In this document: in pieces, positions 28,861-62,009 of the stretch
Position numbering within the stretch: the stretch's first letter is position 1
Layout: every line of letters starts with the position of its first letter
From: an uncultured Bartonella sp.
GTDB lineage: Bacteria; Pseudomonadota; Alphaproteobacteria; Rhizobiales; Rhizobiaceae
DNA: 64,000 nt
NCBI RefSeq assembly: GCF_946479275.1
Contig: NZ_CAMLFE010000005.1
Location: forward strand, 124,001 to 188,000
Direction: 5' to 3'
The notes under the pieces: generated by a model
Seen by the model: only the letters and a program-made list of their open reading frames with translations
Databases searched by the model: none
What the model was told of the DNA's origin: nothing
Made by a program: the position numbers and the translations under genes

Positions 28861-28861
28861 A

Positions 28862-30410: not shown

Positions 30411-30428
30411 AACCGGATGAAACGGAAT

Positions 30429-42151: not shown

Positions 42152-42155
42152 TACC

Positions 42156-44318: not shown

Positions 44319-44758
44319 GCTATCAAATCTATCTCACCGAAAAATGGCCTTATGAGCGGATGAAACGCTATAGCGGCGATCTTACTGAAGCGATGAAAAA
44401 AATCGCCCGTCGTTTTCCCGACGACATATCATTTCAAACAATGGCAGAAGAAATTGCAAATGGCGAGCGGCAATTGTGGATCATTGTTGACGAGAAAGAA
44501 AACTTTGTCGCCTTCGTCACCTCGCATATCGAAATTCTGGCGAGCGGGAAAAAACGTGTCGAACTCCTCGAACTAGCCGGTCACGGCGGCGAGAAAATAG
44601 CCGATATGATCGAACCGATAGAAGAATGGGCAAAAACCATCGGCGCATCCGAAATTTGCCCGATCGGTCGCATCGGCTGGTCAAAAATCATGCGCACACA
44701 TGGCTATCGGCCAAGCGTGGTCAAATATCGAAAGGAATTGAACAATGGGCGGAAGTAG
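44315..44758 (+). CDS. GNAT-like phage protein, putative internal virion component
   Basis: The 147-residue protein has a partial acetyltransferase-like pattern: LWIIVDEKENFVAFVTSHIE in strands, then KRVELLELAGHGGEKI and a late GWSKIMRTHGYRPS. Comparable small GNAT-like genes occur in the tail region of T7-like and other podoviruses and are annotated as acetyltransferase or internal virion protein. The acetyl-CoA P-loop is not convincing, so enzymatic activity is doubtful. It overlaps both neighbours. Confidence 0.65.
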   Translation: MSYQIYLTEKWPYERMKRYSGDLTEAMKKIARRFPDDISFQTMAEEIANGERQLWIIVDEKENFVAFVTSHIEILASGKKRVELLELAGHGGEKIADMIEPIEEWAKTIGASEICPIGRIGWSKIMRTHGYRPSVVKYRKELNNGRK

Positions 44759-45794
44759 CGGAAAAGGCGGAAAAACAAAGCAAACGAAGACCGAGACATC
44801 AGCCCCGCCGGAATGGGCAGCACCACTCTTCAAGCGCTCGGCCGAGGATGCCATGGACCTTTATAATTCCGGTCAGGGTGGCAATGTTTATCAAGGCTCG
44901 CGGGTGGCCGATTTAAGCGACACAACAAAAAATGCCATTAGCGGGCTTGGAAACGCCACCGCCAATTATGGCAACAGCTATTTGCAAGGCCTTGCAGGCG
45001 GCAAAAATGCGAGTGGCCAGAACCTTGCCGATATGGCTTCAGGAAAAATGGTGGGGGCAAACACAGCCTATAATCAGGCTTTACAAAACACACTTGATAA
45101 CACTGCCAATACCATCAACAGTCAAATGAGCGGTGCTGGTCGTTATGGTTCGGGCGCCCATAGCGGTGTTTTGTCTCGACAATTGGGACAGGCTGCAACA
45201 ATGGCCCTTTCCAACCAGTATAATCAGGATGTTGGAAATATGCTCAATGCCAATGAACTTATCGACAGGGCAAACAATAACCAGCTTTCGGCCGCAAGCA
45301 ATTATTTTCAAGGGCAAGGAAATAATTTTCTTAATGCTTTGAAAGGCGGCACAATCCTTGACCAGAACAACCAGCAAAAACTTGATGCAGCACGTGACCA
45401 ATGGAATGAAGAAGATAATCGCGGCTGGAACCGTCTTGCCATGCTTTTAAGTGCGGCTCAAGGTGCGGCCGGAAATTACGGAACGTCAAGCGGAACGCAA
45501 ACAACAAAACAACAGAATGGTGCGCTCACCACAATAGGAAACGGTTTGGGTGCGCTCACATCGCTTTTTGGTCTCTCGGACCAACGCACAAAAGAAAATA
45601 TCCGCTATGCGGGTAAACGCAACGGCTACAATGTCTATGATTTTAACTATATCGGAAGGGCTGAACGCTATCGCGGTGTTATCGCGCAAGAAATCCTTAA
45701 AACCGACCCCGATAAAGTTGTGATCCACCCCGAAAGCGGGTTGTTAATGGTCAATTACAACAAGCTCGGATTTGATATGGAAAGGCTTCTTTGA
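44745..45794 (+). CDS. Virion protein with C-terminal S74 auto-chaperone domain
   Basis: The protein is 349 residues. An N-terminal GGSSGKGGKTKQTKTE stretch and a long Asn/Gln/Ala/Gly-rich helical middle resemble ejection or tail proteins. The C-terminal 75 residues are a Peptidase_S74 intramolecular chaperone: SDQRTKENI supplies the Ser-Lys dyad (Ser278, Lys283, spacing as in K1F endosialidase), followed by YRGVIAQEIL and an MVNYNKLG end. In the family this domain trimerises the protein and then cuts itself off. The attachment to an Asn/Gln-rich, non-fibre-looking body is notable. Confidence 0.78.
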   Translation: MGGSSGKGGKTKQTKTETSAPPEWAAPLFKRSAEDAMDLYNSGQGGNVYQGSRVADLSDTTKNAISGLGNATANYGNSYLQGLAGGKNASGQNLADMASGKMVGANTAYNQALQNTLDNTANTINSQMSGAGRYGSGAHSGVLSRQLGQAATMALSNQYNQDVGNMLNANELIDRANNNQLSAASNYFQGQGNNFLNALKGGTILDQNNQQKLDAARDQWNEEDNRGWNRLAMLLSAAQGAAGNYGTSSGTQTTKQQNGALTTIGNGLGALTSLFGLSDQRTKENIRYAGKRNGYNVYDFNYIGRAERYRGVIAQEILKTDPDKVVIHPESGLLMVNYNKLGFDMERLL

Positions 45795-45980
45795 AGGCAA
45801 GCCATTAAGCTGTTTTAAAACGCCTTTCAGTGACATGGGAGACAAGAGGCTTGTCTACACCCGCCGCTTGAGCATGAGCCCCATAAATTTAACGACAAAT
45901 CAATCAAAAGACATTGCGTGACCATTCCGGATCCCACCGGAAGCGCGAATAAAAAATTCCACCCGAATGGAGGCTACCTC

Positions 45981-46376
45981 ATGAATTCACATTCTTTTTT
46001 TAATTTTTGGAAAAACCACCCGTCCACTAACAATGCGCCGGTGCTGGGCTCGATTGGCCCTGCCGGATATGGTGGCCAAAACTTTAACACCGGCCTATCC
46101 GCCCCTTCTCTCATTACGAGTGATAACAATAGAGGAACCCCTTCCGCCCCCACCACCGCTTACGGATTACTGGAAGACGGGCAAACGCAAAAAGGCCTTG
46201 AAAAAGGCGCCGGCTCACTTGCCAATGCATTGATCGCCCTCGGCAATGTTGATGCACCGCAGACAAGCTCGATGCAACTAAAACCGGTGCGTGGCCCTTC
46301 AGCCGAACAATCGGAGGCGCTTTTGCGCCTTTTATCAAACATGCGCTCGAAAACCGATAATGGGGGAACGTTATGA
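45981..46376 (+). CDS. Small unrecognised tail-region phage protein
   Basis: The protein is 131 residues from the ATG at 45981, which has GGAGG eight bases upstream. It is Gly/Ser/Pro/Asn-rich with a short helical C-terminus (SAEQSEALLRLLSNM). No family is recognised. It overlaps the collar-fibre gene by 4 bp, so translation is coupled. It may be a minor virion or ejection protein. Confidence 0.68.
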   Translation: MNSHSFFNFWKNHPSTNNAPVLGSIGPAGYGGQNFNTGLSAPSLITSDNNRGTPSAPTTAYGLLEDGQTQKGLEKGAGSLANALIALGNVDAPQTSSMQLKPVRGPSAEQSEALLRLLSNMRSKTDNGGTL

Positions 46377-47314
46377 GTTCGATTTATGATTGGTCACTTT
46401 CGGCAGCAAGCAATGCCAATGCCGACAATATTATCAACTGGACAGAAGGGCAACCGCCAAGCACGGTCAACAATTCCGCCCGCTCGATGATGCAGCGTGT
46501 GCGCGAATATATGTGTGATATTGGCGGCGACGTGACTGTCGAAGGGTCCTCTTCTCGCATTGCCATTCAGTCAAAAACACCGATAACCGCTTATATCAAC
46601 GGCATAACATTGCGGTTTCGCGCTCTCGCTATGAATATCGAGCAACCGCTGATCAGCCTCAACAATATTGATTATAAACCGGTTTTCAAAGCAACTTATC
46701 AAGGGGTGAAACCTTTGGAAAGTGGGGACATTCAGGCCGGCGCTCTCTATGAAATTGTCTTTTGCAGTTTATTGAACAATGGAAGCGGCGGCTGGTTTTT
46801 GTCTTCACCGACACCTCAACAAGCAACGCCGGCCGGTGTTATTTCAATGTATGGTGCGCCAACTGCACCCGCCGGTTGGATACCCTGCGACGGACGCTTA
46901 TTATCAAGAACACAATATGGCGCGCTGTTTTCAGCCATTGGCGAATGGTGGGGAAGAGGCGACGGGCAAACAACCTTTGCCGTGCCGGATTTGCGCGGTG
47001 TTTTTCTGCGCGGCGCCGATGCCGGTAAGAATATCGACCCCAACCGTGCCTTTGCCTCTTTTCAGGATAGCCAGAACCGGTGGCACAGCCATTCCGGTTC
47101 GGTCGGTGAGGCTGGCGAACATAGCCACAGCTATACCACATGGCAGCGCAACAAAGGCGGAGCGGACGGCCAAAATGGCTGGGATTGGTATTCACAGATT
47201 ACCGAAAACACTGCGATAGCCGGAAGACACAGCCATAGTCTCACCATCAATGCTGACGGCGGCAATGAAGCGCGCCCGGTCAATATTGCCATTCAATATA
47301 TTATCAAGGCTTGA
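46373..47314 (+). CDS. Tail fibre with phage collar domain
   Basis: The 313-residue protein has an N-terminal virion-attachment-like region (IYDWSLSAASNANADN, INWTEGQPPSTVNNSARSMM). A C-terminal tail-collar domain follows (GVISMYGAPTAPAGWIPCDG, FAVPDLRGVFLRGADAG, and His-rich HSHSG/HSHS motifs as in iron-binding fibre tips). It recognises the host surface or stabilises the fibre tip. It starts on an ATG overlapping the previous stop, with GGGGGAA upstream. Confidence 0.87.
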   Translation: MSSIYDWSLSAASNANADNIINWTEGQPPSTVNNSARSMMQRVREYMCDIGGDVTVEGSSSRIAIQSKTPITAYINGITLRFRALAMNIEQPLISLNNIDYKPVFKATYQGVKPLESGDIQAGALYEIVFCSLLNNGSGGWFLSSPTPQQATPAGVISMYGAPTAPAGWIPCDGRLLSRTQYGALFSAIGEWWGRGDGQTTFAVPDLRGVFLRGADAGKNIDPNRAFASFQDSQNRWHSHSGSVGEAGEHSHSYTTWQRNKGGADGQNGWDWYSQITENTAIAGRHSHSLTINADGGNEARPVNIAIQYIIKA

Positions 47315-47317
47315 ACA

Positions 47318-47485
47318 ATGGATGAACACCCTTTTGCAATATCTGGCATAAAAGAGCCGGAGAAAATCCGCATATTGATTTATGCAAATAATCAAATGGC
47401 GCATGTTGCCCTTTCCGCACTTCTTACGCCGTTACAAAACAAGATTACCGAACTTGACAACCGTTTGAAGAAACTGGGGGTTTAA
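47318..47485 (+). CDS. 55-residue phage protein between fibre genes
   Basis: A short frame runs from ATG 47318 to TAA 47483-47485, with the next ATG directly after. The sequence has a short acidic head and then an amphipathic helix (MAHVALSALLTPLQNKITEL). It fits tightly between two fibre genes with no gap, which supports it despite the size. It may be a fibre chaperone or connector; no family is recognised. Confidence 0.6.
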   Translation: MDEHPFAISGIKEPEKIRILIYANNQMAHVALSALLTPLQNKITELDNRLKKLGV

Positions 47486-48325
47486 ATGGCTGTACCCTAT
47501 CATACACACACTTTCGAAATTCCGATTGCAACGCCGCAGGATATGGCCGCACGCGCTTCCAGTGACAAAGCCGTAACACCTTCGGTTCTGGGCACGGCTG
47601 CAACAGCCGATAGAAGCGAATTTGCAACGGCCGAACAGGGCAAAAGAGCCGATAGTGCCGTTCAACCGGAAACGCTCGGCACTTTGGCGAGAAAAAACAA
47701 AGTCGTTTTAACTGAAATTGAAACAAATGGTTTGCCTTCAAACACCACTTTTCTATCCGGCAATGGTTGGCAGAGCCTTACCGGTGATGGCGATATGACA
47801 ATCGCAGTCTATGACCCGTCGGGCAAGCGAACCGACGCTTTCGATATGGGGGCTATGAAAGAAACATCGAATGCCAAAATCATGACCGCCGACGAACGCC
47901 GCAAACTTGCAAATATCAACGCATTAGCCGCATCGCTATGGAATGCCGGTGCGGATGGAACAGAAGCACTCGTTTCCCCCGTTAAATTACGAGATGCCAT
48001 TAATGCCCGTTTTGGCGGCAATCCTGCAAGCGGTTGGACGCGAATGCCTAACGGAATGCTAATTCAATGGGGGAATGCGGCGGTTGCATCGGGAAACGGA
48101 TATTGGCAGATTTTTTTCCCGACTGCATTTACAAAAAAAGGCATTTTCCTGCCCACAATAGCGACGGAGTGGACGGGCGAATGGTTTGCTCCGATCGTAT
48201 TTACAGCCGCGAGTGATAATACAAATCTCAATATGAGAGGTCTTCACCTACGACAAACAACAGGAACAAATAGCGTTTCTTATCTAAATTCTTGCAACGT
48301 GCAATGGTTGGCGATTGGTTACTGA
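47486..48325 (+). CDS. Tail fibre protein with gp53-like C-terminal domain
   Basis: The 279-residue protein begins AVPYHTHTFEIPIATPQDMAARASS, a pattern seen in rhizobial phage fibres, followed by fibre-like repeats. Its C-terminal domain (MPNGMLIQWGNAAVAS, IFFPTAFTKKGIF) is the gp53-like fibre tip. It probably binds host polysaccharide. It is directly followed by a tail-fibre-assembly-like gene, the usual order. Confidence 0.83.
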   Translation: MAVPYHTHTFEIPIATPQDMAARASSDKAVTPSVLGTAATADRSEFATAEQGKRADSAVQPETLGTLARKNKVVLTEIETNGLPSNTTFLSGNGWQSLTGDGDMTIAVYDPSGKRTDAFDMGAMKETSNAKIMTADERRKLANINALAASLWNAGADGTEALVSPVKLRDAINARFGGNPASGWTRMPNGMLIQWGNAAVASGNGYWQIFFPTAFTKKGIFLPTIATEWTGEWFAPIVFTAASDNTNLNMRGLHLRQTTGTNSVSYLNSCNVQWLAIGY

Positions 48326-48326
48326 T

Positions 48327-48791
48327 ATGAAAAAAGCAAAATTCGATGAAAATGGCTCCCCTGCGGCATTTTACGACACGAACGCATACGATGACCCATC
48401 AGCTGTTATTCCGCCGGATGCCGTCGAAATCACAGATGAGCAATGGATGGCCTGCCTCACCAACCCACGCGGTTGGAAATGGGAAAATGGCGGATTGGTA
48501 AAGTACACGCCACCACCCCCTGCCCCCGTATTTCCTCAGCTATCAGCGAGGCAATTCTGGCAGGCGGCTTTTGCTATCGGTATTAGAGAAGAAGACCTGA
48601 TTGCAGACATCGCAAATAAGGACAACCCTTTTTACATTGCAGATGATAAAGACCGCGAAAGCGCACTCATTGATATTTCCAAGGCAACAAGCTTTACCCG
48701 CAATTACTGGCTTTTGAAAAAAATGGCCGAAGTCAACAAAATTCCCGACGAGCAGCTCGATACTTTATGGGCATGGGCGGCAACTATCTAA
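48327..48791 (+). CDS. Tail fibre assembly-like protein
   Basis: The protein is 154 residues from the ATG at 48327. The front half (FDENGSPAAFYDTNAYDDPS, AVEITDEQWMACL) matches the common fibre-assembly or fibre-tip companion pattern. The rear half (QLSARQFWQAAFAIGIREEDL, YWLLKKMAEVNKIPDEQLDTL) is helical. It begins 1 bp after the fibre stop and ends the morphogenesis operon just before a strong terminator. Confidence 0.75.
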   Translation: MKKAKFDENGSPAAFYDTNAYDDPSAVIPPDAVEITDEQWMACLTNPRGWKWENGGLVKYTPPPPAPVFPQLSARQFWQAAFAIGIREEDLIADIANKDNPFYIADDKDRESALIDISKATSFTRNYWLLKKMAEVNKIPDEQLDTLWAWAATI

Positions 48792-48818
48792 TAGGCGCGT
48801 CCACCATAAAGGACAATC

Positions 48819-48846
48819 AGCCCCGCTTTTGCGGGGCTTTTTATTA
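48819..48846 (+). terminator. Strong rho-independent terminator of the late structural operon
   Basis: AGCCCCGC (48819-48826), a TTTT loop and GCGGGGCT (48831-48838) are followed by a T-rich tract. It is near-identical to the terminator at 57519-57545 before the lysis genes; the two bracket the accessory block. Confidence 0.92.
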
Positions 48847-48859
48847 CCTTGGAAAAGGA

Positions 48860-49165
48860 TTATGGTTGTTTATACTTTTCAAGAGTTTCTTTAGCTTTGT
48901 TTATGTCATCCTTGGTAAAAAGCGGATGCCATTTTTTATTGTTTACAACAAGAGATTCAACCGTCAAATCAAGCCGTTGGTTCTCCCATAGTTTGGTAAA
49001 ACCGGTAGTAGTAGACTTGGAGTGTATCAGCATTTTCGCTGCGTAAACGCCACGATGCCGCCAAACCTCCTGTTTGAATCTGGTAAGTCTTATTCCGAGT
49101 TCATCGCGAGCTTTATCATAAATAGCCAACATTTCTTTATGAAATTCATCTGCCAAGCTTGTCAT
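48860..49165 (-). CDS. Small accessory protein of a widespread uncharacterised family
   Basis: The 101-residue protein starts at ATG 49165 with an excellent GGGAGGAG site. Helix-rich features include DEFHKEMLAIYDKARDELGI, FTKLWENQRLDLTVESLV and WHPLFTKDDINKAKETLEKY. Short proteins of this pattern are common singletons in proteobacterial genomes, often near prophages or defence genes, and have no established function. It runs against the late operon and follows the terminator at 14 bp, so it belongs to the accessory block. Confidence 0.8.
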   Translation of the reverse strand: MTSLADEFHKEMLAIYDKARDELGIRLTRFKQEVWRHRGVYAAKMLIHSKSTTTGFTKLWENQRLDLTVESLVVNNKKWHPLFTKDDINKAKETLEKYKQP

Positions 49166-49947
49166 TTTATACTCCTCCCGCTTAAAACCGGACTGTCGTT
49201 CATAATATCATATGCTGCCACCATTTTTCAAAAGGCAAAATATAAAACCTTCAAATTTTCCCTCAATGAACAGTCTAAAAGCAAAGTGCCATAAAGTTTG
49301 CGTTAAATGTCAAATCCGTTGAGGTAAAAACAACCTCTATTGCTGATCTTTTGCTGTTCACCTATCAATTGGTACATTGCAAACTTCGCGACCTTCCCGA
49401 AGAAAAACGGTAAAAATCTATTTTGCTGCGGCTTTGTCGGAAAAGTTTTCTTCTATAACATTTCTTAAAACAGTCAGAGGCCTTAACTGGCTCACTGTTG
49501 ATCAACTTCCGTCATAAAACGCCCTTGTTATCTAAACGTCAACTGGAACTCGATTTTTTACATATATAAATTTTCTAGTATTTTTATATAAAATTAAAAA
49601 CATAACATTTTTTATATTGTAATATTTTTACTAATAAAATTATAATTACATATAACCATCGTATCAATGTTACATATTTTACTATCTTATTTATAATTGT
49701 CATTATATATATCATGATAAAAATACAAAAAATATGAAAGTAATATTTTTTAATTAAAAATTTTTTCACCTTTCCGAGTAATACACACGCTGCTAAAAGA
49801 ATTTTCTTTACATTCAAGCATTCTATTGACTCGATGAACTGCACCATATAGAGCTTCTGTCCCAAGCAGGTGCATACAAATCTATAGCACTGTTTTTAGT
49901 TTGGCACTAAATGACCGGCATTTCGATAATGTGAAGAGGGCTAAGCA
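49166..49947. other. Upstream region of glycosyltransferase module A
   Basis: The stretch is very AT-rich from 49550. It contains leader copy 1 (49623-49898). No ORF is supported; the 93-codon leftward frame across the leader is a product of AT-rich sequence. Confidence 0.5.
49623..49898 (+). repeat. Module leader repeat, copy 1 (276 bp)
   Basis: It is identical, base for base as read, to 51673-51948. A diverged third copy of its last part lies before module C (about 54690-54820). Each copy ends about 50 bp before a GTG start with the same AGGCTAAGCA-type ribosome region. Confidence 0.9.
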
Positions 49948-51459
49948 GTGGAAACCGGATTTTACAAGCATAATGAAGAGAAATTTAATTATAATGTAGA
50001 TTGTCTTATAAAAAAAACTTTATTATTTCTGAAACATAATTATTTATTTTTATGTATATTTTGTACGTTTTTATGGTTATTCTACGCGTTTTATCCGGGA
50101 ACTGTCGTTTATGACTCCTTCTACATGTATTTGGGAGCATTGGGGGGATATACAGGAAATTGGCATTCTGCGCTTATCACCAGAATGTGGCAGTTGATTT
50201 TATTCTTCACCGACATAAAAGGCACATTTTTGCTCATTCCTTTGGCTGCAACCTGCGCAGGATTGTACATAATTGCTAAAAACATTTCTAAAGGAATTAT
50301 AACGGGCATTATCTGCGTATTGATATTGTTTATGCCGCCTGTTTTTGCAAATATAACAGTTGTTTTGAAGGATACTTATCTTGCTTCGTTCACCTTTTTA
50401 GTAGCAGCACTGATGATTAATCAGGCGATTTCCGATAAAAAACAAACATATTTATTTTATATATTTTCCGGGATTGCCTTGGTTTGTTGTTTTTATTTTC
50501 GGCCCAACGGATGTTTTATTGCGGTACCTTTGCTTGTAGCGATTTTTATGGCGTGGAAATCTCCAATTATATACCGCTACATTGCGTTTCTTGTGCTTGT
50601 TGTTTTTGTCTGTGCAACAGCCTCATTTGTCAATTTAAAACTATTAAAAGCCAGCGATGACTTCCCTGAAATTTCTTTGATGTGGTTTGATATTGCAGGT
50701 ACAGCAAAACATAGCGGCGTATCCACTCTTCCTGAAACACCTGGAACTCCTGATCAATTGGGCCTCATAAAACATTGCTATTCACCTGACCAATGGGATA
50801 CGATAGCCACTTGGCGTGGAACCGATAATTGTAATGCTATTGCTAAATACTTTTACGATCAAAGAGATAAAGGCCCTGAGCAGCTTAAAAAAGTTAAAGA
50901 TGAACTCCGTAAAGCGTGGATTGATGCTATCACGCAACATCCATTAGCCTATTTAAAACATCGTTTGTCTCATTTTAACCGTTTTATAGATTATCAAGGA
51001 CACCGTCCTGCATTCCAACCTCTCCATGTCCGGGTTGTTGGATTTGTCTACATGTTCGATAAGGATCACTACCAAGATATAACCTATGAAATTGATCCGC
51101 CGCGATTATGGAAAACGTTTATTGATATGGATTTGGGTAACCAATTATGGTTCCACCCATATGTCAGTTTGCTTATTCTGTTATTTTTCTATCTTTCGAC
51201 CCTTGCCACAAACGACCGCTTTAACCGGACATTGAACGTTGTTGCTTTTTCCGGCATGATCTACCTTATCGGCTTTTTGTTCGTCGGAGTTTCTGCCGAC
51301 TTCCGATATTCCTATCCGAGTTTGTTATTGAGTATTTTGTGCATCTTAGCTGCGTTCGGCTATTACAGCCAAAAGCGGAAAGTGTTCGGAAACAGAAAAA
51401 TGCGGATCGTGGGAGCCTCGATCACAATTCCTTTATTTTTAGTCGGCATTATTCTGTAG
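49948..51459 (+). CDS. GT-C-like membrane glycosyltransferase, module A (GtrC-like role)
   Basis: The 503-residue polytopic protein has about ten membrane segments. A periplasmic loop after the first membrane segment has FYPGTVVYDSFYMYLG and NWHSALI; the acidic YDS motif is placed like the catalytic Asp of GT-C enzymes. A soluble loop includes GVSTLPETPGTPDQ and HPLAYLKHRLSHFNRF. The GTG start has AAGAGGG upstream. It is paralogous to the proteins at 51998 and 54821. By analogy with GtrC it would transfer a sugar from an undecaprenyl carrier to lipopolysaccharide in the periplasm. Unlike modules B and C it has no GtrB-like gene after it. Confidence 0.8.
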   Translation: METGFYKHNEEKFNYNVDCLIKKTLLFLKHNYLFLCIFCTFLWLFYAFYPGTVVYDSFYMYLGALGGYTGNWHSALITRMWQLILFFTDIKGTFLLIPLAATCAGLYIIAKNISKGIITGIICVLILFMPPVFANITVVLKDTYLASFTFLVAALMINQAISDKKQTYLFYIFSGIALVCCFYFRPNGCFIAVPLLVAIFMAWKSPIIYRYIAFLVLVVFVCATASFVNLKLLKASDDFPEISLMWFDIAGTAKHSGVSTLPETPGTPDQLGLIKHCYSPDQWDTIATWRGTDNCNAIAKYFYDQRDKGPEQLKKVKDELRKAWIDAITQHPLAYLKHRLSHFNRFIDYQGHRPAFQPLHVRVVGFVYMFDKDHYQDITYEIDPPRLWKTFIDMDLGNQLWFHPYVSLLILLFFYLSTLATNDRFNRTLNVVAFSGMIYLIGFLFVGVSADFRYSYPSLLLSILCILAAFGYYSQKRKVFGNRKMRIVGASITIPLFLVGIIL

Positions 51460-51997
51460 CCTCTTAAAACCACAGAAAAAAGCGGGATTTAGAAAGCTGA
51501 ACGGCGAAAAAAACTGAAGATTAAACTGATCCGTCGGCAAGTCGCTGCCGGATAATCGGCTATGACAGGCAGCCATCGGGTCTTTGCGGCCACGATTCAT
51601 TTTACAATTATCAACGCTGCAAAATTGCACCAACTTGCATAATCTACGTCTTTCATAAGTTTGTTATTGAATTATTTTTACTAATAAAATTATAATTACA
51701 TATAACCATCGTATCAATGTTACATATTTTACTATCTTATTTATAATTGTCATTATATATATCATGATAAAAATACAAAAAATATGAAAGTAATATTTTT
51801 TAATTAAAAATTTTTTCACCTTTCCGAGTAATACACACGCTGCTAAAAGAATTTTCTTTACATTCAAGCATTCTATTGACTCGATGAACTGCACCATATA
51901 GAGCTTCTGTCCCAAGCAGGTGCATACAAATCTATAGCACTGTTTTTAAATTGGCGCTAAATGACCGGTATTTTGATAATGTGAGGAAGGCTAAGCA
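51460..51997. other. Region between modules A and B
   Basis: The first 200 bp (51460-51660) have no supported gene and no trace of a gtrB-like sequence that I can see. Leader copy 2 follows. Confidence 0.45.
51673..51948 (+). repeat. Module leader repeat, copy 2 (276 bp)
   Basis: It is identical to 49623-49898 at an offset of 2050 bp, although the downstream coding regions are well diverged. It ends about 50 bp before the GTG of module B. Confidence 0.9.
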
Positions 51998-53503
51998 GTG
52001 GAAACCGGATTATATAAGAATATTGAAAAGAAATTTAATAATAATGTACATTATCTTATAAAAAAAATTCCACTTTTTCTTAAAGATAACTATCTATTTT
52101 TATGTGTATTTTGTGTTTTTTTATGGTTCTTCTGCGCTTTTTATCCTGGAACAGTAGCCAACGATTCATTCGAAATGCTAAAAGAAGCTGTTCATAATAA
52201 TATAGGAAATTGGCACTCTCCACTTATATCAAGGTTTTTTCAACTTATTTTATCAATAACTAGTATAAAAGGCATATTTGTACTAGTGTTTATGATACCA
52301 TTCTTTTTAGGCTTGTACATAATAGCAAGAAATATTTCAAAAGGAATTTTTACAGGTCTTTTATGCATAATAATATTGTTTATTCCTCCCGTTTTTGTTT
52401 TTGTACCCGTTGCTTTGAAAGACACTTATATAGCTTCATTTGCCTTTTTAATATCGGCACTGATGATTGATGGGGCAATTTCAGACAAAAAGAGAACTGC
52501 GGTCTTTTATGCGTTTTCAGTGTTCATTCTTGTATGCTGTTTTTATCTGCGTCCCAACGCGTGCTTTATTGCAGTGCCTCTACTGATCGCAATTTTTATG
52601 GGATGGAAAACTCCGATTATATATCGTTACATCTCATGTCTTGTCCTTGTGCTTTGCGTTATAGCGTCGACCCCGCTTGTCAATTTCAAATTATTGGGAG
52701 CTCGAGATGATGCTCCTGATTTTTCTTTGATGATTTTTGATGTAGCTGGTACAGCAAAATATAGTGGAGTATCCACTCTTCCCGATATTCCTGGTGTTCC
52801 TGACCAAGTAAACCTGTTCCAAAAGTGTTATTCACCTCTCCAATGGGATGCGGTTGCTAATTGGACGGGCCCTGATTGTAACGGTGTTGGGTACTATTTT
52901 TACCATGAGAGAGATTCAGGAAAAGAACGCCTTATGGCAGCCAGACAGGAGCTTCGTAAAGCCTGGATTGCAGCCATCACACAGCATCCAGTGGCTTATT
53001 TAAAACATCGACTAGCTCACTTTAATCGTTTTATTGACTATCTAGGATATGAGCCTGTTTATCGACCAATTTATATCACAACAGTTGGCTTTACTGTTGG
53101 ATATGGCGATCCTGACTATTCGCTCTTTTACTTGGTTAAGCCTCCTCGGCTGTGGAATTCTGTTATTAATATGGATTTGGCAAACCAACTGTGGTTCCAC
53201 CCTTATGTTAGTTTGCTTATTCTATTATTTTTCTATCTTGCAACGCTCACAACAAACGACCGCTTTAACCGGACATTGAACGTTGTTGCTTTTTCTGGTT
53301 TGACCTACTTCGTTGGCTTCTTATTCGTCGGTGTTTCAAGTGACTTCCGGTATTGTTATCCAAGCTTGCTGTTGAGTATTTTGTGCATCTTAGCTGCACT
53401 CGGCTATTATAGTCAGAAACGGCAAGTGTTCGGAAATAGAACAACGCGAATTATTGCAACCGCAGTCACTGTACCATTATTGTTGATCGGCATAATCTTT
53501 TAA
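51998..53503 (+). CDS. GT-C-like membrane glycosyltransferase, module B
   Basis: The 501-residue paralogue of the 49948 protein shares the FYPGTVANDSFEML loop (with NDS in place of YDS), GVSTLPDIPGVPDQ, QHPVAYLKHRLAHFNRFIDY and NQLWFHPYVSLLILLFFYL. Divergence is concentrated in the periplasmic segments likely to bind the acceptor sugar. The GTG start has GAGGAAGG upstream. It is followed after 50 bp by a GtrB-like gene. A distinct specificity from module A is likely. Confidence 0.8.
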   Translation: METGLYKNIEKKFNNNVHYLIKKIPLFLKDNYLFLCVFCVFLWFFCAFYPGTVANDSFEMLKEAVHNNIGNWHSPLISRFFQLILSITSIKGIFVLVFMIPFFLGLYIIARNISKGIFTGLLCIIILFIPPVFVFVPVALKDTYIASFAFLISALMIDGAISDKKRTAVFYAFSVFILVCCFYLRPNACFIAVPLLIAIFMGWKTPIIYRYISCLVLVLCVIASTPLVNFKLLGARDDAPDFSLMIFDVAGTAKYSGVSTLPDIPGVPDQVNLFQKCYSPLQWDAVANWTGPDCNGVGYYFYHERDSGKERLMAARQELRKAWIAAITQHPVAYLKHRLAHFNRFIDYLGYEPVYRPIYITTVGFTVGYGDPDYSLFYLVKPPRLWNSVINMDLANQLWFHPYVSLLILLFFYLATLTTNDRFNRTLNVVAFSGLTYFVGFLFVGVSSDFRYCYPSLLLSILCILAALGYYSQKRQVFGNRTTRIIATAVTVPLLLIGIIF

Positions 53504-53553
53504 ATCGATGGCTTTGGAACTTTTGACATCTGATATTAACTGGAAGAAGAAAT

Positions 53554-54468
53554 ATGGAAAAGTGTTCGATCGCAGTTGTTATTCCTTGTTATAACGAGGA
53601 AATCACCGTCAAATCTGTCATCACGGATGCGAAGCGTTACATTAAAGACGCGACAATTTATGTCTATGACAATAATTCTTCTGATGACACCATCAAAATA
53701 GCAAAAGAAGCCGGTGCAATTGTCCGTAGTGAAAAACGGCAAGGCAAAGGCAATGTTATCAAGCGTGCATTCAGAGAACTTGATGAAGATGTGATATTGA
53801 TTGTCGACGGCGATTCAACTTATGATTTGTCCATCGCTCAATCTGCGATTGACAAATTTATTGATGAAAAACTTGACTATATGAATATTCGTCGGGTTTC
53901 AGAAGCAAAAGAGTCCTATCCCTTTGGCCATCGTTTCGGAAATAAAGCGTTAACTGGTGCGATACAGTTTATCTTCGGTCGGCAAATTACCGATATGTTA
54001 TCCGGATATAAGATATTTTCGCGTAAATTCGTCAAATCATTTCCGATTTCTTCCAATGGTTTTGAAATCGAAACAGAAGTCACTGTTCATGCTTTGGAAA
54101 TGAATGTTGCACTGGATGAAATCGAAGCCCCCTACGGAGAACGTCCAGAAGGTTCCGAAAGCAAGCTTTCAACGATTAAAGACGGTTTTCTGGTAGGTGT
54201 TACCATCATCCGACTTATCCAGTTGGAACGCCCCTTTATGTTTTATTCCATCGTTGCATTGTTGTTCTGGATACTTTCACTTGCCTGTGGCATTCCAGTA
54301 ATTACCGAATATGCAAGAAGCGGACTGGTTCCACGCTTACCAACAACAATTCTTGCAGGTTTTCTTGGTATATTGGGAGCCATGAGCTTTATGGTCGCCC
54401 TTATTCTGGATCTCGTCAAGAAAACTCGCGCTGATATGAAAAAACTTGCTTACCTTGCGGTGAAATAA
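53554..54468 (+). CDS. GtrB-like polyprenyl-phosphate glycosyltransferase, copy 1
   Basis: The 304-residue protein has an N-terminal GT2 catalytic domain of the dolichol-phosphate-mannosyl-synthase type: VVIPCYNEEITVKSV, nucleotide and metal motif IVDGDSTYD, and the acceptor-side RPEGSESKLSTIKDG. Two C-terminal membrane helices follow. In the family it links a sugar from UDP- or GDP-sugar to undecaprenyl phosphate on the cytoplasmic face. It differs from copy 2 (56380) at about 13 residues, 11 of them after residue 205. It follows module B and probably supplies it; it may also supply module A. Confidence 0.9.
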   Translation: MEKCSIAVVIPCYNEEITVKSVITDAKRYIKDATIYVYDNNSSDDTIKIAKEAGAIVRSEKRQGKGNVIKRAFRELDEDVILIVDGDSTYDLSIAQSAIDKFIDEKLDYMNIRRVSEAKESYPFGHRFGNKALTGAIQFIFGRQITDMLSGYKIFSRKFVKSFPISSNGFEIETEVTVHALEMNVALDEIEAPYGERPEGSESKLSTIKDGFLVGVTIIRLIQLERPFMFYSIVALLFWILSLACGIPVITEYARSGLVPRLPTTILAGFLGILGAMSFMVALILDLVKKTRADMKKLAYLAVK

Positions 54469-54820
54469 CATTCATGATGATAGATGCAATTGTTGTGCTA
54501 ACAAATTTCACAATCTTTCTATACTATTAGGCAACGTTTATTTTTAATCAATACTGATAAAACGAGATTGGATGCATATTAATTTTTAGAATTACACAAA
54601 TTTTTCAGCGAAATAATTATAAAATAACTTAATATATTACAGTTATTTTGTATAATTTTATATATTATTTCAAATGTATCTTTATTGAAACCTTATGATT
54701 GACTTGATGAACCGCGCAATATAAAGCTTCCGTTTCAAGCAGGTGCATACAGATCGAGAGCACTGTTTTTAAATTAGCACTCAGTGACCAGCATTTTGAT
54801 GATGTGAGGAAGGCTAAGCA
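54469..54820. repeat. Region before module C with a diverged leader copy
   Basis: From about 54690 the sequence follows the leader of modules A and B (GACTTGATGAACCGCGCAAT, GCAGGTGCATACAGATC) at perhaps 80 percent identity by eye. The AT-rich first part of the leader is not conserved. No ORF is supported. Confidence 0.65.
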
Positions 54821-56329
54821 GTGGAAACCAAATTATATAAGAATATTGAAAAGAATTTTGATAATAAAGCATATTATTTTATAAAAAACATTCCACTTTT
54901 TCTGAAAGATAACTATCTACTTTTATGTATATTTTGTGCGTTTTTATGGTTATTCTACGCCTTCTATCCTGGAACAGTTGCGTATGATTCATTTGTTATG
55001 TATGCGGATGCATATAACAATCATACTGGAAATTGGCACTCTGCTCTCCTGATAAGATTCTGGCGCATCATTCAATCGGTTACCGATATAAAGGGTATTT
55101 ATGTATTTATACCTTTGGCTGCAACCTGCTTGGGATTGTATATAACCGCTAAACATATTTCCAAAGGAATTTTAACTGGCATTATCTGCATATTGATATT
55201 GTTTTTGCCTCCTATTTTTACCTATATCACCACTGTTTTGAAGGATACTTATGTCGCTTCATTAGTCTTTTTGATAGCAGCATTGATGATGGATAGAGCA
55301 ATTTCAGACAAAAAGAAAACAACGTTATTTTGTGTGTTTTCAACGGTTATTCTGGTGTTTTGCTTTTTCGTACGCTCCAACGGATGTTTTATTGCAGTGC
55401 CTCTTCTTATAGCGATTTTTATGGGCTGGAAAGCTCGGATTATTTATCGTTATATTGCGTGTCTCATCCTTGTGATTTGTGTTATCGTGGCAACACCATT
55501 TATTGATCTTAAATTATTACACGCAGATGACGAAGCTCCTGATTTTTCTTTATTGATTTTTGATATAGCTGGTACAGCAAAATATAGTGGAGTATCTACT
55601 CTTCCCGATATTCCAGGTGTTCCTGACCAAGTAAGCCTGTTCAAAAACTGTTATTCAAATACCCAGTGGGATTCTGTCTCTAGTTGGGCGAGCGCCAACT
55701 GTAACAGTGTTGCGGCCTACTTTTACCATGAGAGAGATTCAGGAAAAAAACACCTTAAGGCAGCCAGACAGGAGCTCCGCAAAGCTTGGATCGCAGCCAT
55801 CACACAGCATCCGGTAGCTTATTTAAAACACCGTTTTTCATTTTTTAACCGGTTTATAGACTATCAAGGCCATCAGCCTGTTTTTCAACCATTTTACATT
55901 GAAAAAGTCGGTTTCATCGATATGGTAGATCGTGACCAAAACCGTGCGCTCACCTACACGATTAATCCTCCGGATTTATGGAACACTGTTATTCATATGG
56001 ATTTGGCAAAACAACTATGGTTTCACCCTTATGTCAGTTTGCTCATTCTGTTATTTTTCTATTTGGCAACGCTTGGCACTAGCGACCGGTTCAACCGAAC
56101 ATTGAATGTTGTCGCTTTTTCCGGCTTGATATACCTTGTCGGTTACTTATTCGTCGGTGTTTCAAGTGAGTTCCGGTATTCTTATCCGAGCTTGCTGTTG
56201 AGTATTTTGTGCATCTTCGCTGCATTCGGCTATTATAGTCAGAAGCATGAAGTATTCGGAACAAAGAAAACAAGAATTATAGCAGCCTCGGTTACTATAC
56301 CTTTATTTTTAGTCGGCATAGTCTTATAA
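54821..56329 (+). CDS. GT-C-like membrane glycosyltransferase, module C
   Basis: The 502-residue paralogue keeps FYPGTVAYDSFVMY, NWHSALL, GVSTLPDIPGVPDQ, HPVAYLKHRFSFFNRFIDY and KQLWFHPYVSLLILLFFYL. Its N-terminus is closest to module B, while the LIPLAATCxGLYI segment is closer to module A, hinting at exchange between copies. GTG start as in the others. A GtrB-like gene follows after 50 bp. Confidence 0.8.
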   Translation: METKLYKNIEKNFDNKAYYFIKNIPLFLKDNYLLLCIFCAFLWLFYAFYPGTVAYDSFVMYADAYNNHTGNWHSALLIRFWRIIQSVTDIKGIYVFIPLAATCLGLYITAKHISKGILTGIICILILFLPPIFTYITTVLKDTYVASLVFLIAALMMDRAISDKKKTTLFCVFSTVILVFCFFVRSNGCFIAVPLLIAIFMGWKARIIYRYIACLILVICVIVATPFIDLKLLHADDEAPDFSLLIFDIAGTAKYSGVSTLPDIPGVPDQVSLFKNCYSNTQWDSVSSWASANCNSVAAYFYHERDSGKKHLKAARQELRKAWIAAITQHPVAYLKHRFSFFNRFIDYQGHQPVFQPFYIEKVGFIDMVDRDQNRALTYTINPPDLWNTVIHMDLAKQLWFHPYVSLLILLFFYLATLGTSDRFNRTLNVVAFSGLIYLVGYLFVGVSSEFRYSYPSLLLSILCIFAAFGYYSQKHEVFGTKKTRIIAASVTIPLFLVGIVL

Positions 56330-56379
56330 GTCAGTGACTTTAGAACTTTTGACATCTGATATTAACTGGATGAAGAAAT

Positions 56380-57294
56380 ATGGAAAAGTGCTCGATCGCA
56401 GTTGTTATTCCTTGTTATAACGAGGAAATCACCGTCAAGTCTGTCATCACGGATGCGAAGCGTTACATTAAAGACGCGACAATTTATGTCTATGACAATA
56501 ATTCTTCTGATGACACCATTAAAATAGCAAAAGAAGCCGGTGCAATTGTCCGTAGTGAAAAACGACAAGGCAAAGGCAACGTCATCAAACGCGCATTCAG
56601 AGAACTCGAAGAAGATGTGATATTGATTGTCGATGGCGATTCAACTTATGATTTATCCATCGCCCAATCTGCGATTGACAAATTTATTGATGAAAAGCTT
56701 GACTATATGAATATCCGGCGGGTTTCCGAAGCAAAAGAGTCCTATCCTTTTGGCCATCGTTTCGGAAATAAAGCGCTAACCGGTGCAATACAATTTATCT
56801 TCGGTCGGCAGATTACAGATATGTTATCCGGATATAAAATTTTTTCGCATAAATTCGTCAAATCATTCCCTATTTCATCAAATGGCTTTGAAATCGAAAC
56901 AGAAGTTACTGTTCATGCTTTAGAAATGAATGTTGCACTGGATGAAATCGAAGCCCCCTATGGAGAACGTCCTGAAGGTTCCGAAAGCAAGCTTTCAACG
57001 ATTAAAGACGGTCTTCTGGTTGGTCTTACCATCATCCGTCTTATCCAGTTGGAACGCCCCTTTTTGTTTTATTCCGTGGTTGCACTGTTGTTCTGGATTA
57101 TCTCTCTAACCTTTGGCATTCCGGTCATTACCGAATATGCAAGAAGCGGACTGGTTCCGCGGCTGCCAACAGCAGTTCTTGCCGGTTTTCTCGGACTGTT
57201 AGGCGCTATGAGCTTTATGGTTGCGCTTATTCTGGATCTCGTCAAGAAAACACGGGGCGATATGAAGAAACTTGCTTACCTTGCGGTAAAATAG
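56380..57294 (+). CDS. GtrB-like polyprenyl-phosphate glycosyltransferase, copy 2
   Basis: The 304-residue protein has the same domains as the 53554 protein, with about 96 percent identity counted by eye. The catalytic half is almost unchanged; nearly all differences lie in the membrane helices (for example FWIISLTFGI versus FWILSLACGI). The preceding 50 bp are also nearly identical to those before copy 1, so the duplication includes the intergenic spacer. The gene ends the accessory block. Confidence 0.9.
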   Translation: MEKCSIAVVIPCYNEEITVKSVITDAKRYIKDATIYVYDNNSSDDTIKIAKEAGAIVRSEKRQGKGNVIKRAFRELEEDVILIVDGDSTYDLSIAQSAIDKFIDEKLDYMNIRRVSEAKESYPFGHRFGNKALTGAIQFIFGRQITDMLSGYKIFSHKFVKSFPISSNGFEIETEVTVHALEMNVALDEIEAPYGERPEGSESKLSTIKDGLLVGLTIIRLIQLERPFLFYSVVALLFWIISLTFGIPVITEYARSGLVPRLPTAVLAGFLGLLGAMSFMVALILDLVKKTRGDMKKLAYLAVK

Positions 57295-57518
57295 CAATCA
57301 TAATTATAGATCCGTTTGTTGCGCCAATCGTTTTATCTCACGGTCGCCCTTTCCGCTTTTTCAGGGATGGGGAAAATTCCAACTGCTATAAATCCGGTTT
57401 GATGAAACGGAGTTTAGGAACAGCGCTTTCCGCAGCTTTCTGGGCTTTCATTTGTCTGATGACAACAGCATCCGGTTTTTAACAAAAGCAAAAATCAACG
57501 AATTGAATATTGAACCAC

Positions 57519-57545
57519 AGCCCCGCTTTTCGCGGGGTTTTTTAT
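57519..57545 (+). terminator. Rho-independent terminator before the lysis genes
   Basis: CCCCGC (57521-57526) and GCGGGG (57532-57537) surround TTTTC and are followed by TTTTTTATT. It closely matches the terminator at 48819-48846. It ends transcription from the glycosyltransferase block; the gap 57295-57577 holds no gene. Confidence 0.9.
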
Positions 57546-57577
57546 TGCCTTCATTTATCATTGATAAAGGAAACACC

Positions 57578-58243
57578 ATGACACGACAAATCAACCCCCA
57601 CGGTCTTGAAAAACTGAAACAATGGGAAGGTCTCAAAACCAAAGCTTATAAAGATGCCGGCGGCGTCTGGACAATCGGCTACGGGCACACGGCAGCGGCT
57701 GGAACGCCCGCACCACACCAAGGAATGGTTATCACCGAAGCCGACGCGGAAAGCATTCTCCTGAAAGATCTTACGCAATATGAAGCGGCTGTCGAGAACA
57801 ACGTCAATGTCAAACTCAACGACAATGAATTTGCCGCTCTTGTATCCTTTACATTTAACGTCGGCATCAATGCTTTCAAAAATTCTTCACTTCTCAAAAA
57901 ACTCAATAAAGGCAATTTTGATGCGGTTCCATCTGAACTGATGAAATGGGTCAAAGCAGGGGGCAAAAAGCTTCAAGGCCTTGTCAATCGGCGGCGGGCT
58001 GAAGCGTATCTCTGGATGGAAGGCGCTTTTGTCGCTTCCAAAGATGTCGTGCCGGAACAAAAAACTGTTCATCCGGTGTTGAAGCCGGAAGTCGTCGGGC
58101 CGGTTATCAGCGCCGCTTCCGGCTTGACCGGTTTTGCCACCGGTTCGGGGCCTTTCCAATGGGCGTTAGCCGCCGTCATGGTGATCGGCGTTGCAATCGG
58201 CAGTTTCTATTTCATTAAACGATTGCGAGAGGCGGAATTATGA
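57578..58243 (+). CDS. Phage lysozyme (GH24) with C-terminal membrane anchor
   Basis: The protein is 221 residues from the ATG at 57578 (AAAGGA upstream). The GH24 triad is Glu17, Asp26 and Thr32 in WEGLKTKAYKDAGGVWTIGYG, with exactly the T4-lysozyme spacing. The fold continues to FTFNVGINAF and RRRAEAYLWMEG. A linker and then one hydrophobic helix (WALAAVMVIGVAIGSFYFI) follow, ending with KRLREAEL. The enzyme cuts peptidoglycan; a C-terminal anchor differs from the N-terminal SAR anchor of many endolysins. There is no N-terminal signal. The longer frame from 57452 runs through the terminator and is rejected. Confidence 0.9.
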   Translation: MTRQINPHGLEKLKQWEGLKTKAYKDAGGVWTIGYGHTAAAGTPAPHQGMVITEADAESILLKDLTQYEAAVENNVNVKLNDNEFAALVSFTFNVGINAFKNSSLLKKLNKGNFDAVPSELMKWVKAGGKKLQGLVNRRRAEAYLWMEGAFVASKDVVPEQKTVHPVLKPEVVGPVISAASGLTGFATGSGPFQWALAAVMVIGVAIGSFYFIKRLREAEL

Positions 58244-58506
58244 CTGCATTCGAACGTCTGTCAATCACCATTGCCATCATCATTGTTGTTATTCTTGCCG
58301 CCGCTTCCGGCGGTCTTTTTATCGGGCAACGATTAGAAAAACAAAAATCGCTTGCAGCCGCCAACGCTGCCTTCCAAAAATCACGCGAGGTTGAAAATGA
58401 AGTTGAAGCTCTTACCCCTTACAATCGCTGCCTTGCTCTTGGCGGGGTGTCAAACGAATGCGCGGTTCTCCTGCGCGGGTTGGACAAAACCGCCAAAGGT
58501 GAATGA
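58240..58506 (+). CDS. Inner-membrane spanin candidate (Rz-like)
   Basis: The 88-residue protein has one N-terminal membrane helix (LSITIAIIIVVILAAASGGLF) followed by a charged periplasmic helix (QRLEKQKSLAAANAAFQKS), as in i-spanins. It overlaps the lysozyme by 4 bp (ATGA) and contains most of the start of the o-spanin frame. With that lipoprotein it would fuse the two membranes at lysis. It is short for an Rz protein. Confidence 0.72.
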   Translation: MTAFERLSITIAIIIVVILAAASGGLFIGQRLEKQKSLAAANAAFQKSREVENEVEALTPYNRCLALGGVSNECAVLLRGLDKTAKGE

Positions 58507-58597
58507 CGCTCCACGCCTTGTAGAAACCGAACCGGCAATCACCAAATGGATCATCTCGACTGACCGTTTTGGGCAAAAACAGAAATGCTGGAAATGA
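58397..58597 (+). CDS. Outer-membrane lipoprotein spanin candidate (Rz1-like), overlapping out of frame
   Basis: The 66-residue protein starts at ATG 58397. A lipoprotein signal peptide ends in the lipobox LLAGC (Cys at about 17); the mature part is about 50 residues with few prolines. It starts inside the Rz-like gene in a different frame and extends 91 bp past it. This overlap is characteristic of Rz/Rz1 pairs. The longer frame from 58352 would bury the lipoprotein signal and is rejected. Confidence 0.75.
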   Translation: MKLKLLPLTIAALLLAGCQTNARFSCAGWTKPPKVNDAPRLVETEPAITKWIISTDRFGQKQKCWK

Positions 58598-58988
58598 AAA
58601 AACTTCTTAGTCTTTTGCCAATAGGCGTTCATTAAAAGACTATAAATTGGCGGCGGGTTGATAACGATGTTTTTATATACTTTGTCGGACAATCCGGGAA
58701 AAACCATCTTACGGACAACTAAAAGCAATTTTCCGACCAAAGCCGGATCACCAGTTTTATAATAAAATATGAAATGCGGCATTTCGCAGTTTCCAATAAA
58801 TATCATTGATGAAAAATTCCGCCCTCATTCTATCTCCCAGAGAATTACAAATATGTTCGATTTATTAAAGTTCTACTTGCCCCTCTCCGTCGACACAGCT
58901 TGCGCCCGCTTATCATAATATTCGCCGACTAACTTATGAGAGCAAATAATGTTCAAACAACGCTTCACGCCTTTTATGGAATAATCAA
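58598..58988. other. Intergenic region in the lysis module
   Basis: These 391 bp hold no supported gene. A leftward 118-codon frame covers the o-spanin region and looks like a shadow. Confidence 0.4.
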
Positions 58989-59333
58989 ATGTCAGAAAAC
59001 AATCCCCCTCCCGACTGGCTTGCTCATCTTGTCAGGTTCGGACTTCTTGCTCTTGCCGGTGCTTGCGGCAGCTTTTTAAGCCAGCTTAACAGCGCGCCAA
59101 AAAAATGGCCTCAACGTGTCATGGAATGGGTTGGCGGTGCTTTATGCGCCATTTATGGAGCGGAACTTGCCGCCAATGCACTTTATCACCTTCTCGATAA
59201 ATCCGACCTTATTGACGGTTCCTACGCCGTTCCGGAAAAATTCCTTGGCCTTGCCGGTTTTTTATGCGGTGCTTTGGGTGTCGTAGCTATTGATATTGGA
59301 ATAGGATTTTTGAAAAGAAAATTCGGCTCATAA
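58989..59333 (+). CDS. Holin candidate, three membrane segments
   Basis: The 114-residue protein has three hydrophobic segments at about residues 12-32, 47-66 and 84-106, with a hydrophilic start (SENNPPPDWLAHLV) and a basic C-terminus (KRKFGS). Size, topology and position beside lysozyme and spanins fit a holin. The order lysozyme-spanins-holin is reversed from the usual one. It may equally be a phage membrane protein without pore function. Confidence 0.7.
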   Translation: MSENNPPPDWLAHLVRFGLLALAGACGSFLSQLNSAPKKWPQRVMEWVGGALCAIYGAELAANALYHLLDKSDLIDGSYAVPEKFLGLAGFLCGALGVVAIDIGIGFLKRKFGS

Positions 59334-59999
59334 CCAAGTTTTCGTAACCGTTCCTCATGCAACCGGTAAACCGGCCGTGTTCACATTGGATCAATAAAAG
59401 CCGGAACATAGTGATGCATGAGCGAAAAGAACTTTCAAGCTTTGCCACAACCGGTTCACTATCCTTTTGAATATCGCAGTTTGATCGGCAACAGAACGAC
59501 ACAAAACAGCGATCAAATCCGAAAAAAGCCGCTTTAAATCCTCATGAAACTTTGGATTATCGGATAACCGGTAATCCTATTATCTGTTATTTTGCCTTTT
59601 ATAACGCGAAAAACCCCGTCCTGACGGGAATATGACCGAAGGGCAGTAAAGCCGTTTTAGACTACGCCGCATCTTCTCCCCGCCTCATGGCTTCTCCCCT
59701 TCTCTTTGCCTCTCCCCGTCTCTTTGCTTCTCCCCGTCTCTCTGCTTCTCCCCGTCTCTTTGCTTCTCCCCGTCTCTTTGCTACTCTCCGTCTCTTGGCT
59801 TATAATTTCATAATCTGGAGTCCTGTTTGAACTCCAAGCCTTGGATGTTCGACATAGCAATCCTGCTTCAACCTTAAATTGACCAGTCTGGCACAATTTT
59901 CCGATTGTTTTTCAAACCCGATTGACAGGCTCTGAAACAAAAATGAAAAGCAAAATTTTAACGCAGGATCCAAACGTCATAGAGAAAAAAACGGGGAAT
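59334..59999. other. Region after the holin with 18-bp repeats
   Basis: It holds the seven-copy repeat described separately. The leftward frame through the repeats (59657-59896) has a TTG start without a ribosome site and is not called. Nothing else was found. Confidence 0.45.
59673..59798 (+). repeat. Seven tandem 18-bp repeats
   Basis: CTTCTCCCCGTCTCTTTG is the central unit (59745 and 59763 are identical); copies at 59673, 59691, 59709, 59727 and 59781 vary, with the outer copies most diverged. Edge decay is typical of arrays that expand and contract by slippage. Confidence 0.88.
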
Positions 60000-60212
60000 C
60001 TATTCGATTGGCAGTTTCGGTTTCCAGCCCCGACCATAGCCGACAGACATAGCAGAAGCCGCAACTTCAATTTGGTGGATCAGCATTTTCCGTTCTTCAA
60101 GCAAAGCTCTAATGAGGGCTTTTGCATCCCCGTCATAGGCTGCAATGAGGCCATCAATATCGTCTTCACAACTATCGTTTGAAACAGCTTTGCTCACTTT
60201 ACGCGACTCCAT
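60000..60212 (-). CDS. Small helical protein of a Rhizobiales family
   Basis: The 70-residue protein has CEDDIDGLIAAYDGDAKALI, then ALLEERKMLIHQIEVA and a GYGRGWKPKLP end. Small proteins with a D-Ax-AL-ALL helical core and a Gly-Arg-Gly-Trp tail recur in Rhizobiales genomes and prophages without known function. ATG start with a weak GAGAAC site. It lies alone at the right end of the prophage. Confidence 0.65.
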   Translation of the reverse strand: MESRKVSKAVSNDSCEDDIDGLIAAYDGDAKALIRALLEERKMLIHQIEVAASAMSVGYGRGWKPKLPIE

Positions 60213-61173: not shown

Positions 61174-62009
61174 ATTTTTAATGTTCCTTTCTAAAGGAAC
61201 TGCCGCAAGGGAGGAAAATCTACGATTATGAGGTTCTTCTCTATTCACACATTGATATTTTTCAAAATGAAAGATAAAATGTTTGATGTATAATAAGAGA
61301 ATAAACATAATCGCACCTATTCTAACCGCGACAGTTTGTTCGATATTTCAAATCAAGCCTTGGTTAGCGCCAAGGCTTGATCGTTAACAGCCGAATTGTC
61401 GCTAACGGTCTAAATGTAATTTATATCCTGCAAAAGTGTCAATATGTCATATGAACGCCACTTCTGTTTTCCAAAGTATTATATATTAAGTTGGCTAATG
61501 ATTACTTTTCGCATTCTTAAAAAAATAAATATTTGAAAATGCTGTAGAAAATACCTTGTTCTAAAAATCTTAAAGGAGTTCTATTACTTATATACACGTA
61601 TCCTTTCAATGAAAATTTTAAATTCGAAAATTTTTTAGCTTAAAAAAAATATAGTGAATTCGATATTTTTACCGAATCACTTCTTTTTTAGGAAGAAACT
61701 GCAACTAATCAGAAACATGTTTATTATAAGCTCCACCGGTCACCTTCAGCTTATGCTTTTCCGTCAAAGATAATAATCAAAAATCCGGTCGTTCTGGTAA
61801 GCATTTTATGCGAGCGTAGGTATTTTATTCAAGCAGGGCATTTTAGTAACGCGGTTGAGACTTATGAACCCCGACTGTTAAAACAATTATAGATGATAAA
61901 ATCACACGCAAAGCATAACAAAGTCACGCGCAAAGCATGATTGCTTTTCCGATGTTTTGAAGTTTGAAAACTCGACATTTTGTCGTTTAAAACAATTTTT
62001 GATGAAAAA
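61174..62009. other. AT-rich region between prophage edge and tRNA-Pro
   Basis: These 836 bp hold no supported ORF and are strongly AT-rich between 61480 and 61680. The right prophage attachment region probably lies between here and the tRNA 3' end. Confidence 0.4.

Follow-up and report, generated by a model that had tools for sequence, protein, structure and literature searches.

A probable gtr-type conversion cassette with several GtrC-type genes and no GtrA of its own in a Bartonella prophage

The gtrABC operons of Salmonella and Shigella phages combine a GT2 glycosyltransferase (GtrB) and conserved partners with a variable polytopic transferase and, in the sections of the literature available to us, are mosaic between phages (PMC3688519, PMC3259042) and are each presented as one operon with one specific transferase. 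The available portions of these and related reports also give gtrA and gtrB of Shigella as interchangeable between serotypes (PMC3259042) and, for phage P22, gtr changes to the O-antigen receptor as a form of superinfection exclusion (PMC11436027). Here we describe a cassette of about 8.2 kb (49240..57469, + strand) in a prophage of an uncultured Bartonella whose genome comprises 2.57 Mb in 22 contigs. The window, i.e., the whole 64-kb stretch that was analysed, is G000:C5:124001-188000 (G000 being the cassette's own genome), and all positions refer to it. The cassette holds three polytopic and two GT2 genes, all on the + strand. It is a real, ordered, accessory and evolutionarily active accretion of the gtr kind with several alleles, and probably a lysogenic-conversion (moron) cassette in which GtrB serves several alternative GtrC-type transferases without a GtrA of its own.

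GT2 GtrB, conserved partners, a variable polytopic transferase and mosaicism are shared with the gtrABC operons. Unlike them, the locus lacks GtrA, has up to three tandem GtrC-type genes with a promoter-like element each, lies between tail-fibre and endolysin genes, and encodes a GtrC-type protein with no Pfam match and no detectable kinship to the GtrII protein of the host chromosome (hhalign probability 0.4%). No description of a multi-allele gtr-type cassette without GtrA was found among open-licence papers, nor any such paper on honey bee Bartonella prophages with glycosyltransferases or on Bartonella apis with O-antigen. The available part of the main text of a survey of bee prophages (PMC10259446) contains no word starting with glycosyl or glucosyl.

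Cassette genes and their kinship to gtr loci

The polytopic proteins have 503, 501 and 502 amino acids (aa) and are encoded from GTG starts at 49948..51459, 51998..53503 and 54821..56329; their pairwise identity is 65-69%. The second and third genes are each followed by a gene for a GtrB-like GT2 of 304 aa (53554..54468 and 56380..57294), these two proteins being 96% identical, and the first polytopic gene has no GT2 gene of its own. The reading frames are open, and the array agrees with the initial annotation, which had listed three polytopic proteins of 501-503 residues and near-identical GtrB-like enzymes. It had also described them as phage-borne and placed between tail and lysis genes, and tail-fibre genes indeed flank the cassette on the left and an endolysin gene on the right.

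The GT2 proteins match PF00535 (3e-17) and the GtrB-like PHROG 841 (1.7e-11), and the second of the two matches a solved dolichol-phosphate mannose (DPM) synthase at 5e-9. Known GtrB proteins have C-terminal transmembrane (TM) helices, and hydropathy places two such helices in the GT2. The best NCBIfam match is to the polyprenyl-phosphate hexosyltransferase AglJ (TIGR04182, E 9e-57), with a score of 192.6 bits against a cut-off of 325 bits, and the GT2 is therefore not an AglJ.

Judged by eye from hydropathy, each polytopic protein spans the membrane with about 10-11 TM segments and includes a loop some 165 residues long, and its link to GtrB is provided by gene neighbourhoods elsewhere. The IMG/VR prophage contig 2899023524 (L083) encodes a homologue (27% identity, E 3e-48), then a GT2 (59%) and then GtrA (PF04138, 4e-18), in a cassette that lies, much as here, between a pectate-lyase-like gene (a tailspike candidate) and a phage lysozyme gene. 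GtrB (GT2, 47%), GtrA (PF04138, 1.5e-15) and a homologue (25%, E 1e-20) also occur together, in this order, on an independent phage contig with baseplate genes (L110). Both loci share the homologous membrane protein and GT2 with the Bartonella cassette, and differ from it in having a single copy and a GtrA. In a further genome (G351) a homologue (26-28%), GT2 (49-56%) and GtrA (PF04138, 4e-20) follow one another, each as a gene of its own. A 780-aa open reading frame (ORF) there was considered as a fusion of membrane protein and GT2; this was ruled out, the genes being separate and in different frames, with GtrA following. As homologues adjoin GtrB and GtrA at all three loci, the GtrC-type role initially proposed for the polytopic proteins is upheld.

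Two genomes of the same family (L030 and L031) carry a homologue of the membrane protein (hhalign 98.3% for that of L031) in cassettes that differ in having another GT2 type and, instead of GtrA, a DUF2304 protein and one that weakly resembles EamA (below cut-off). The first of these adjoins a tail-fibre gene and the second an endolysin-like ORF (by eye). A tandem of three homologous polytopic proteins was also observed in G448 (L098:7630-12351), a genome from another family of the same order, at a locus with no recognisable phage genes; a short ORF there resembles the GT2 (44% across 149 aa) and has no Pfam match.

No GtrA (PF04138, E <= 0.001) was identified in the window, which agrees with the initial statement that the array has none, and a full gtrABC set is not present. 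The profile search of the genome that had been proposed alongside gave a single match, which is chromosomal and on another contig, beside a GtrII (PF14264) gene. This host locus (L080:5610-9533; G000:C1, about 317.6-321.5 kb) includes, on the other strand, a nearby GT2 gene (PF00535) and a 296-aa ORF that we take to be YdjC/ChbG-like; the same arrangement of ORF sizes was seen in G060 and G014. Of the 71 genomes of the genus, 13 have a GtrA match, among them six of the seven with the cassette.

Distribution, promoter-like elements and mosaic alleles

The prophage genes in the window include those for portal, DNA-ejection protein, terminase, tail-collar and tail-fibre proteins, endolysin and a holin-like protein. 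The same genes are carried by B. choladocola BBC0122 (L013) and by an uncultured Bartonella metagenome-assembled genome (MAG; L014), both of which are also among the genomes of the genus. Such Bartonella are inhabitants of bee guts. Relatives of the ejection protein occur in 66 of the 71 genus genomes, and in only nine at 73% identity or more; four of these nine have the cassette (G000, G014, G044 and G062, the last a MAG with ejection gene and array on separate contigs) and five do not (G003, G004, G045, G046 and G057). At four sister loci without the cassette (L075-L078) homology to the window ends at 49232-49239 and restarts at 57469-57470, with about 100 bp between, and the right-flank gene is common to all four at about 98-99%. 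For the more distant sister G057, homology ends at 48859 and restarts at 57511. The insertion is thus present or absent in otherwise alike prophages, as accessory DNA of temperate phages is.

The polytopic protein was found in seven of the 71 genomes, with 11 copies in total: three in G000, two each in G014 and G062, one each in G044, G058 and G060, and one in G061 that is cut by a contig end. The GT2 was found in six (seven copies at E <= 1e-40). In each of the three multi-copy arrays, the leading polytopic gene lacks its own GT2. The copy in G060 sits in a different prophage, one with baseplate genes, and there both cassette genes are open and the adjoining endolysin gene is broken. Across the order, the polytopic protein has a match in eight of 397 genomes, own genome included. 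The phage collection contains no relative of it and eight GT2 records, all below 60% identity, and scans of viral contigs with the three window proteins, the L031 protein and one G448 protein gave no relative.

A pattern of the form TTGAC-N16..19-TATARA occurs three times in the window (49826..49852, 51876..51902 and 54699..54725, all + strand), once upstream of each of the three GTG starts and always at a distance of 122 nucleotides (nt). The expected number is 0.23, and three occurrences were reached in none of 100 shuffles; the pattern was drawn from an alignment of the copies and so was chosen after the fact. The element is found upstream of all 11 Bartonella copies, and away from such a copy only once, in L084 (among 110 loci compared, many of them overlapping). 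Judging from this conservation, each copy is probably, though not certainly, its own transcription unit.

The initial annotation had called the array triplicated, which is misleading. We built a maximum-likelihood tree of 11 proteins (ten Bartonella copies, the partial G061 copy being excluded, and the L083 homologue), in which copy 2 pairs with the first G014 gene, copy 3 with the second G014 gene, and copy 1 stands apart. Only two of its eight inner branches pass both support limits, and none of 200 bootstrap trees unites the three window copies. Local triplication is thus rejected, the copies belonging to three lineages that are common to sister prophages.

These alleles show mosaicism. Between copy 1 and the first G014 gene, identity is 99% over the initial 150 nt, 87% and 93% in the last two windows of the comparison, and 55-73% in between. 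From 0.13 and 0.22 in the outermost intervals, the synonymous difference (pS) rises to 0.64-0.77 in the core, and constraint on the protein alone therefore does not explain the mosaic. The longest identical run was equalled in one of 2000 shuffles. The GT2 genes are likewise mosaic. Copies 1 and 2 share a 320-nt upstream stretch at 98% identity, which on this comparison is likely a site of recombination. In most intervals of the compared pairs the nonsynonymous difference (pN) is below pS, as expected of working genes.

An alignment of eight sequences has invariant residues that include D56, H73, K141-D142, R185, K336-H337-R338 and F451-R452-Y453. The long loop (residues ~235-398) is among the least conserved parts of the protein, with 18 of 94 columns invariant in columns 300-400 and 18 of 79 in columns 220-300. 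From diverged segments the initial annotation had proposed several acceptor or linkage specificities; the core, including the large loop, is indeed diverged, and more than one specificity is plausible.

Interpretation and alternatives

We consider it probable that the region is a gtr-type conversion cassette, and a mechanism may be proposed from the families concerned. The GT2 would load a sugar onto undecaprenyl phosphate at the inner membrane face, the lipid-linked sugar would be flipped, possibly by the host chromosomal GtrA, and on the periplasmic side each GtrC-type protein would transfer the sugar to a surface glycan, the acceptor or linkage differing from one protein to the next. The prophage holds three mosaic alleles of a pool common to other Bartonella phages, and exchange between alleles likely proceeds by recombination in the conserved upstream and end sequences. 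With each allele probably under its own promoter, several modifications may occur at once in the lysogen. The likely benefit would be altered phage adsorption, i.e., superinfection exclusion, with changed surface antigens as a by-product. The acceptor may be lipopolysaccharide (LPS) core, capsule or protein glycans; it is doubtful that it is an O-antigen, because the sole host match for an O-antigen ligase (PF04932) is below cut-off.

That match is one of several points that weigh against this interpretation. The use of the host GtrA is inferred only, and G058 (86% complete), which has the cassette, lacks a GtrA match. For the polytopic proteins, Pfam gives nothing above cut-off, PHROG assigns no function and the PDB holds no match, and NCBIfam gives no more than a sub-cut-off match to a putative glycosyltransferase family for two of the three. 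AlphaFold models were too poor to show a GT-C fold, with a mean predicted local distance difference test (pLDDT) score of 37.9 from six sequences and 50.8 from eight. With the latter, still poor, model Foldseek gave 157 matches at E <= 10 and none at E <= 0.001; the best 50 of the 157 are mostly transporters, with one GT-C enzyme (ALG3) at rank 44 (E 3.2). The structural comparison proposed in the initial annotation therefore counts neither for nor against this fold. Three of the compared pairs have a pN higher than pS over their first 27 codons. The spacer of the promoter-like element is 15 nt in most copies, which is short for sigma-70, and a general sigma-70 scan omits the sites. We also considered whether the tip type of the tail fibre tracks the cassette type, which was not borne out in ten phages: G014 and G062 have a common tip type and only partly common transferases, and G044 (one copy) and G003 (none) have the same tip type.

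Three other explanations deserve attention. Under a scheme of surface variation, one GtrC-type gene would be expressed at a time and copies or segments would be swapped between loci. The common ends and exchanged cores of the first slots here and in G014, and the upstream stretch common to copies 1 and 2, are what such swapping would leave behind, and in one G014 copy a homopolymer close to the 5' end contains a frameshift, of the kind expected from slipped-strand phase variation. This scheme is nevertheless improbable. The promoter-like element precedes every copy, which argues against a store of silent copies; a single expression site with promoterless silent copies is not what the sequence suggests. 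No inverted repeat of at least 25 nt was found in 46000-60000 (recombinases were not searched for), and exchange is seen between genomes, not inside a clone. Of the nine copies compared, most have a shorter or an interrupted homopolymer at this place, so that phase variation is only a possibility; intact copies exist, and the frameshift may be a sequencing error. The interchangeable switching suggested in the initial annotation thus keeps its mosaic alleles between phages, and as a whole is weakly backed. Equally improbable in our judgement is that the copies are redundant, share a single activity, and were retained for dosage or accumulated neutrally. Their equal length and equal partner type and the duplication of GtrB at 96% identity would fit, but the copies are polyphyletic, their frames remain open, and their divergence peaks in the core, where pN is nevertheless below pS in every interval.

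It is also unlikely, though slightly less so, that the polytopic proteins carry out another membrane step with the GtrB product, as a polymerase, acyltransferase or flippase. The lack of evidence from fold or family would fit this, and the available part of a report on the Salmonella prophage BTP1 gives a cautionary precedent, a GtrC that is acetyltransferase-like and works without GtrA or GtrB (PMC4413052). Against it, the protein adjoins GtrB here, and GtrB together with GtrA at the three loci described above. The residues D56 and H73 (in the first outer-loop segment) and K141-D142 presumably fit GT-C enzymes, and we count them on the same side.

Building on the conversion cassette, we tentatively suggest a wider scheme, which is possible and has the lesser part of our confidence. 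Bartonella phages might pool GtrC-type transferases that accrete in one insulated slot adjoining the tail-fibre genes, with their own promoters, GtrA being dispensed with, and the resulting combinatorial surface code might decide superinfection by related phages and be rewritten by exchange of allele cores between resident and incoming phages. A slot with 0-3 alleles and natural sisters of each number offers a ready comparison for the stacking of modifications in a lysogen, and for whether each modification blocks a different phage. The cassette also ties to the function of GtrB and GtrA a family of membrane proteins that has no Pfam entry.

Flanking features and side observations

The tRNA-Pro gene at 62010-62086, near the right prophage end and about 4.7 kb beyond the end of the cassette, is likely the integration site of the prophage. 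No exact direct repeat of at least 16 nt that could mark att sites was found between 61400-62700 and 14000-34000. The cassette had been described as lying in the late region and away from the attachment site; its position between tail and endolysin genes holds, and its distance from the tRNA gene does not clearly place it far from the end of the prophage.

A terminator-like hairpin follows the tail genes at 48819..48838 (eight pairs, seven of them G-C, listed on both strands) and another precedes the endolysin gene at 57519..57539 (+ strand; eight pairs, six G-C), forming the left and right edges of the insulated region. The terminator scan gave 13 sites in the scanned region, with 7.5 expected. 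Birth of the cassette by recombination between the two flanking hairpins was considered and ruled out, as homologous flanks also occur without the cassette. Between the left hairpin and the cassette, a 101-aa phage ORF (48860..49165, - strand) is matched at 67-74% identity both in relatives that have the cassette and in others that lack it. To its left, the tail-fibre protein (47486-48325) is conserved over its first ~145 residues in ten sister prophages and ends there in one of several dissimilar C-terminal tips. The phage collection, searched in 'near' mode, contains no relative of the phage DNA at 40000-49000.

A small contig of the same genome (L074; G000:C19, 4543 bp) carries a near-identical stretch of prophage, with four proteins matching at 99-100% and flanked by two diverged ones (66% and 82%); it is either a second prophage or an assembly duplicate. 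An 18-bp tandem repeat of about nine units was identified at 59655-59816, between the holin-like gene and the right prophage end.

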